Positions 19,178-19,395 of a stretch of 64,000 nucleotides of DNA are shown here, in pieces; position 1 is the stretch's first letter, and the number at the start of each line of letters is the position of its first letter. The DNA comes from Pseudomonadota bacterium (GTDB lineage: Bacteria > Pseudomonadota > Alphaproteobacteria > Reyranellales > Reyranellaceae), in the NCBI GenBank assembly GCA_018240685.1, contig JAFEFG010000001.1, positions 1 to 64,000 on the forward strand, read 5' to 3'. A program made the translations under genes and the position numbers. The notes beneath the pieces are model-generated. The model was not told the DNA's origin. It saw only the letters and a program-made list of their open reading frames with translations, and searched no databases.

Positions 19178-19361
19178 TGAAGACTCCTCGCGCCGCGCAC
19201 GGCCCTAAGGCTCTGGACGAACACTGCGATGGAAAAGAAAGTGGCGGCGACTGGTGGAAGGAAGGGACGAACGACATCGTGACCCGCAGGGCCCCTCGCC
19301 AGATCGACTGGGTCGGGGCGGCGGATCAGCCAATAAGTCGAAGCGTCAGCAGTCGCAGCAT
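19178..19361 (-). promoter_or_regulatory. leuA leader RNA (predicted attenuator)
   Basis: The 184 nt between the predicted transcript start (19361) and the leuA start begin with a leucine-codon-rich peptide. The rest can fold in competing ways: GACCC and GGGTC segments pair, CCAG and CTGG form a small hairpin, and GGCGA can pair with TCGCC just before a pyrimidine tract (minus-strand CTTTCTTTTCC, 19231-19242). That layout fits a transcription attenuator, but I could not compute energies. Confidence 0.5.
19326..19361 (-). CDS. leuL: Leucine leader peptide (11 residues)
   Basis: Minus-strand ATG at 19361 opens a 12-codon frame, MLRLLTLRLIG-stop, with five leucines in eleven residues (CTG three times, CTT twice) and stop TGA at 19328-19326. 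It ends 148 bp upstream of leuA. Its composition and position are those of an attenuator leader peptide: ribosome stalling at Leu codons would signal low leucyl-tRNA and permit leuA transcription. The predicted promoter puts the transcript start on the A of the ATG, so it would be leaderless, as reported for trpL in Sinorhizobium. Confidence 0.8.
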   Translation of the reverse strand: MLRLLTLRLIG

Positions 19362-19367
19362 GCGGGC

Positions 19368-19395
19368 ACTTTAGTGCGCCGCGGGCAGGAGTCAA
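19368..19395 (-). promoter_or_regulatory. leuL-leuA promoter
   Basis: On the minus strand TTGACT (19395-19390) and TAAAGT (19373-19368) are separated by 16 bp, a sigma-70-type -35/-10 pair. The predicted start point, 7 bp beyond the -10, is the ATG of the leader peptide. The -35 overlaps the end of the preceding terminator hairpin. Confidence 0.6.

Follow-up and report, generated by a model that had tools for sequence, protein, structure and literature searches.

The leuA gene in the window (the whole 64,000-nt stretch of DNA analysed here) is preceded by a very short leucine-rich frame. This arrangement raises the question of whether the frame is a translated leader peptide and, if so, how a ribosome on it could act on leuA. 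The positions of the features discussed below are shown in Table 1. The leuA product scored 834.5 bits against the TIGR00970 profile, for which the curated cut-off is 697.4, in agreement with its designation as type 2 in an earlier note on this DNA. The 11-residue frame described in that note was also located at the expected place, with 5 leucines and a distance of 148 nt to the leuA ATG. A promoter scan of the 1-kb region found a sole sigma-70-like site, TTGACT and TAAAGT separated by 16 nt (mean of 0.2 sites in shuffled sequences). These are the elements that had been proposed to set the transcription start on the leader ATG, and their spacing fits a start predicted at 19361. The 6 nt between the -10 hexamer and the leader ATG are too short for any Shine-Dalgarno sequence. 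On these sequence grounds, the leader is predicted with good confidence to be leaderless. Many mRNAs of Alphaproteobacteria are leaderless.

Table 1 Positions of the leuA leader features in the window.
Feature	Position	Strand	Support
leuA, 2-isopropylmalate synthase, type 2, 569 aa	17468..19177	(-)	TIGR00970, E 3.8e-251, above cut-off
Leader frame MLRLLTLRLIG-stop, predicted leaderless (ATG 19361, TGA 19328-19326)	19326..19361	(-)	Kept in 36/36 Reyranella sequences
-35 hexamer TTGACT	19390..19395	(-)	Sequence; TTGAC conserved before leader ATG in relatives
-10 hexamer TAAAGT, 6 nt 5' of leader ATG	19368..19373	(-)	Sequence and promoter scan
Block A, CUGCGACU, codons 2-4, 5' strand of long-range helix P1	19351..19358	(-)	MFE fold, consensus fold, compensatory change
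P2b 5' strand GACG, codons 5-6	19344..19347	(-)	Compensatory in L033 and L029
P2b 3' strand CGUC	19266..19269	(-)	Pairs with GACG 19344-19347
Hairpin P2c, GAUCCGC (19321-19327) with GCGGGUC (19281-19287), UGA stop at foot	19281..19327	(-)	U-A to C-G on both sides, 3 sequences
Block B, AGUCGCCGCC, alternative partner of A (in P1) and of D	19243..19252	(-)	Near-invariant in 32 long-type sequences; footprint folding
Block C, CCAUCGCAG, predicted partner of leuA ribosome-binding site	19224..19232	(-)	Consensus fold, conservation
Block D, GUGCGCGGCGCGAGGAG, with leuA Shine-Dalgarno AGGAG (19184-19188)	19184..19200	(-)	Near-invariant in 32 long-type sequences
55-nt stretch rich in C (22) and poor in G (8), possible site of Rho loading	19217..19271	(-)	Composition

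The frame was compared among 36 Reyranella sequences including the window, which comprise 32 of a long type and 4 of a short type (L006, L012, L013, and L025). The search for the peptide in relatives that the earlier note had proposed found it in every sequence, 74-172 nt before leuA and with the common pattern MLRL-x-x-LRLI-G/R (MLLL at the start in L013). Codons 2, 4, 7, and 9 specify leucine in all 36, so that the loss of Leu codon conservation that would have spoken against a leader was not observed. The variation is concentrated in codons 5 (T, L, M, K, P or N) and 6 (T, K or A). TTGAC lies 34-39 nt before the leader ATG throughout the genus; as the distance reaches 39 nt in some members, transcription may start there as much as roughly 3 nt ahead of the ATG, and "leaderless or nearly so" is the appropriate description for them.

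High nucleotide conservation of this kind could also reflect an RNA structure or protein-binding site in the 5' segment, with the frame being incidental and no translated sensor involved, and the actinobacterial LEU element, also located before leuA, was proposed as a protein site. The pattern of substitution argues for translation, however, since synonymous changes occur at Leu (CTG/CTT, CTT/CTA) and Ile (ATT/ATC) codons while the residues are kept. Furthermore, leaders elsewhere in the class differ in sequence and share the ATG position, Leu content, and stop. We thus consider an incidental frame very improbable and regard the leader peptide as real with high confidence. The leader codons CTT, CGA, and ATT are uncommon in the genes of the window (6% of Leu, 5% of Arg, and 6% of Ile codons, respectively) and would suit slow decoding.

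The RNA structure was examined in an alignment of the 32 long-type leaders, with the helices P1 (codons 2-4 with AGUCGC), P2a, P2b, P2c (GAUCCGC with GCGGAUC), and an apical stem. In this structure 97.5% of the alignment cells are paired, as compared with 27-47% when one strand was slid. Changes on both sides were found at three pairs in 5 cells, and L033 has a compensatory P2b (CACG:CGUG). Two further cases lie outside the 5-cell count: a compensatory P2b in L029 (GGCG:CGCC), which is gap-shifted in the alignment and was read by eye, and a G-C/U-A exchange in P1 of the short clade (CUUCGACU:AGUCGAAG in L006 versus CUGCGACU:AGUCGCAG in L012 and L025). The duplex energy of P1 was not above that of shuffled sequence (median p 0.43 in the genus; combined p 0.03 and median 0.55 in the class), and the case for P1 is therefore made by these few but specific compensatory changes. 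Likewise, the total fold of the leader is modestly stable relative to shuffles (z -1.37). In the RNAalifold consensus, CCAUCGC of block C is paired with GCGAGG, part of block D and of the leuA Shine-Dalgarno region. The blocks involved in C:D and B:D are near-invariant and neither helix shows compensatory changes; C:D is supported by thermodynamics and conservation only. An inverted repeat around the -10 element in some relatives was rejected as a candidate; it is not conserved and lies within the range of shuffles for most sequences.

The effect of a ribosome on these helices was modelled by folding the 32 long-type sequences with the ribosome footprint barred from pairing, and the values are mean expected pairs. 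In the RNA free of a ribosome, A:B, C:D, and B:D were 6.45, 5.33, and 0.46, respectively. With a ribosome at codon 4 they changed to 0, 1.22, and 5.80, while a ribosome at the stop left 5.42, 4.86, and 0.36. A ribosome on the Leu codons is thus predicted to exchange C:D for B:D and a ribosome at the stop is not, which is the logic of an attenuator. The accessibility of AGGAG in the long types including the window (with 15 nt of leuA included) hardly increased on stalling, from 0.20 to 0.26, and the folding therefore does not predict the sign of the output. In the leader of the window, A is predicted to pair with B and not with the Shine-Dalgarno sequence.

The 4 short types form one nested clade with a deletion of about 60 nt. 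The deletion removes the usual Shine-Dalgarno region, and the complement of the leader Leu codons (B) sits there instead; as this is one nested clade, A:B was kept after the deletion. In all 4 sequences, positions -12 to -6 of leuA had an unpaired fraction of 0-0.23 in the free RNA or with a ribosome at the stop, versus 0.26-0.55 with a stall at codon 4, while a stall at codon 2 alone hardly opened the site. According to these models, translational control would be the natural reading for the short clade. Because this natural deletion brings the pairing block onto the ribosome-binding site of leuA, leader swaps would be an easy test of the mechanism.

On balance, we think it probable that leuA is controlled by means of an RNA switch that a ribosome operates while translating a leaderless leucine leader peptide. 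The transcript would start at the leader AUG and the ribosome would begin on the bare 5' end. When leucine is plentiful, the ribosome would clear the frame, leaving codons 2-4 (A) base-paired to AGUCGCC (B), and CCAUCGC (C) to the ribosome-binding site of leuA (D), which is the OFF form. A shortage of charged tRNA-Leu would make the ribosome stall at the Leu codons and cover A; B would then be freed to pair with D and displace C. In the short-leader clade B is itself the leuA ribosome-binding region, and a stall on A would uncover it directly. The stalling and the sign of the response are postulated here, and in the long form of the window the output may be translation or Rho rather than an intrinsic terminator. 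If correct, the locus offers a testable example in which amino-acid supply is sensed by a ribosome that initiates directly at the 5' end of the mRNA.

Attenuation of a type-2 leuA by a leader peptide had been predicted from the sequence in the earlier note, which also suggested folding the RNA for terminator and antiterminator forms. The leucine leader, the predicted leaderless start, and the type-2 leuA of that note are supported by comparison, and footprint folding predicted an alternative-helix switch. An intrinsic terminator was not found: the terminator scan gave no terminator-like site for the leader's minus strand, and in the alignment of the 32 long types the pyrimidine tract that follows AGUCGCCGCC does not form a conserved U-run. 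Classical transcription attenuation with an intrinsic terminator could still appeal to the Leu leader, the predicted mutually exclusive helices, and CCGCCACUUUCUUUU, which follows a GC-rich strand in the window itself, but most relatives are without a U-rich tail (CCACCCAAUUCCC in L004 and CCUCAAUUCCAUCC in L032), and the proposed 3' strand B pairs across about 100 nt, unlike a terminator. We therefore regard this mechanism as improbable.

The lack of a detected intrinsic terminator is compatible with Rho-dependent attenuation, in which positions 19271-19217 would load Rho and leader translation would decide on termination before leuA. A C-rich, G-poor linker is present in all 32 long-type sequences, at the 98.5-99.99th percentile of the 55-nt windows of the 64-kb window, which is a point in favour of this route for the long form. 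In addition, a role of Rho has been suggested in Actinobacteria for leaders that lack terminators (cys, PMC1262725). Composition by itself is not a Rho site, however, and the stretch is largely absent from the short clade, which retains the leader. Moreover, a leader stall lies more than 50 nt upstream and would leave the stretch uncovered, so that the direction of control is not obvious. Rho-dependent attenuation as the mechanism is thus unlikely in our view.

The trpL of Sinorhizobium meliloti is a leaderless frame with products that act in trans (PMC7298713, PMC10117765). It shares with the window leader the alphaproteobacterial setting, the association with an amino-acid gene, and the leaderless start (predicted here), and differs in that it concerns Trp, that a transcription terminator releases the sRNA (rnTrpL), and that roles in trans, including those of the peptide peTrpL, have been shown. 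By analogy with this leaderless start (PMC7298713), the leucine leader might be translated and leuA regulated by a peptide working in trans or by a separate sRNA. Several features of the locus speak against this. No terminator was found from which a short RNA could be set free, for which reason a stable leuL sRNA is less likely in this locus than in the case of rnTrpL. Changes in codons 5-6 are matched by changes in their RNA partner, as expected for pairing in cis, and the genome has just two copies of the motif CTNCGACTTAT, one in the leuA leader and the other elsewhere. We accordingly give little credence to control in trans.

The Sinorhizobium trpL precedent cited in the earlier note was correct and yet incomplete, as a closer one exists in LeuL1 of Streptomyces lividans. 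This organism already provides a reported case of a leuL that is leaderless and lacks an intrinsic terminator: LeuL1 lies directly before leuA, was reported to be leaderless on the basis of RNA-seq, and has no typical Rho-independent terminator (PMC8079986). The likeness of leuL1 (MRFGLLLLSCRGEGL) to the window leader thus extends to the Leu-rich frame, the leaderless start, and the missing terminator (PMC8079986), while its peptide and RNA are different and belong to the actinobacterial LEU element. In the LEU element, the Leu-codon leader pairs with the leuA Shine-Dalgarno region and there is no clear terminator (PMC1262725). According to work cited in the same paper, mutations in the Streptomyces leuA leader had effects inconsistent with classical attenuation (PMC1262725). 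The Reyranella leaders are similar to the LEU element in the lack of an obvious terminator, and a pairing of Leu codons with the leuA ribosome-binding region like that of LEU is predicted for their short clade only. A type-2 leuA also lies downstream in the actinobacterial loci examined. The difference lies in the LEU hairpin holding the leader stop, which the window does not have: among the Reyranella loci searched, none was matched credibly by a covariance model of LEU built from 35 actinobacterial sequences; the only match, in L012 (E 0.5), was on the strand opposite leuA and away from the leader.

The leucine leader logic is shared with the enterobacterial leu leader (Rfam Leu_leader), from which the window differs in having neither an Rfam match nor an intrinsic terminator. 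No Rfam leader matched the window region even at E values up to 10, and none matched at gathering level in 12 relatives. Only weak, chance-like hits were obtained and discarded, such as the Rfam model ar14, which reached 24.5 bits where the gathering score is 58.8 and fell on the terminator-like hairpin of the upstream gene. The leuA leader of Corynebacterium glutamicum likewise has a frame with Leu codons (four) before leuA (PMC4046766), and differs in its sequence and in being described as an attenuator prediction (PMC4046766).

The region upstream of the promoter was also inspected. A strong hairpin (CAACCCGCCGGAG..CUCCGGCGGGUUG) is present at 19393-19425 on the minus strand after the upstream gene, and its 3' arm includes the start of the leuA -35 box. 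Two short adjacent genes on the minus strand (19443-19754 and about 19878-20163) encode secreted-looking proteins rich in Tyr, Pro, and Val. Their C-termini are similar (LNLNFNIPLQ and LNINLNVPLR) and the genes are apparently a duplicated pair. The first of them (19443-19754) has no NCBIfam match. Coding ends like those of these genes precede leuA in some relatives.

Outside the genus, 58 alphaproteobacterial type-2 leuA loci were searched, after exclusion of 14 fetched loci in which the leuA start was unrecognised. The rule called for a frame of 10-26 codons that opens with ATG, has 3 or more Leu in the last 12, and is preceded by TTGAC starting 35-39 nt before the ATG. Such a leader was found in 42 of the 58 loci, with the TTGAC distance peaking at 35-36 nt, whereas 0.3% of dinucleotide shuffles and none of the 58 reverse strands complied with the rule. 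A promoter with this spacing would initiate on the ATG or a few bases from it, and a leaderless or near-leaderless start is therefore predicted class-wide. Predicted leaderless leucine leaders before type-2 leuA are thus widespread in Alphaproteobacteria, where Rfam has no model.

Many Alphaproteobacteria have two tandem leucine leader frames before leuA (L036-L069, for example L044, L047, L051, and L052). The first is predicted to be leaderless and ends in ..LRLT.P.L with its stop in a hairpin loop; the second lies directly before leuA and ends in ..LRLIGG.RA, and CT.CGACTT is often found in both. In L047, L050, L051, and L052, the Leu codons of the first leader are complementary to the segment between the first leader and the ATG of the second. 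The sister genus (L043) has both leaders, while Reyranella has the first only. A class-wide mechanism may be put forward tentatively, although we hold it to be rather doubtful: the codons of the leaderless leader would be one of the strands in a switch that controls translation from the following start codon, tandem leaders would act as a relay, with the first gating the second and the latter gating leuA, and the second leader would have been lost in Reyranella. The LEU covariance model matched just one alphaproteobacterial leuA leader (L076, E 0.012); the second leader therefore resembles the LEU element in layout only, and a common origin is unsupported. In the literature consulted, which consisted mostly of papers free of subscription, no description of alphaproteobacterial leuA leaders, often tandem, was found, and a mention in the study of proteobacterial attenuators by Vitreschak (2004) is possible.

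Other layouts were observed among the loci collected. Brucella tritici (L142), L148, L063, and L075 have a single leader before leuA that is laid out like the actinobacterial LEU element, and in some of them the start codon is close behind a promoter-like site. In two betaproteobacterial loci (L117 and L144, from Ramlibacter and Comamonadaceae MAGs), a leader-like frame (MNRISLVLLLSPYGRRR and MNRISLALLLSPDGRRR, respectively) precedes a type-2 leuA and is followed by a hairpin and T-run (CGGCCCGTTTGCACCAGCAGCGGGCCGTTTTTCTTT), a likely intrinsic terminator.
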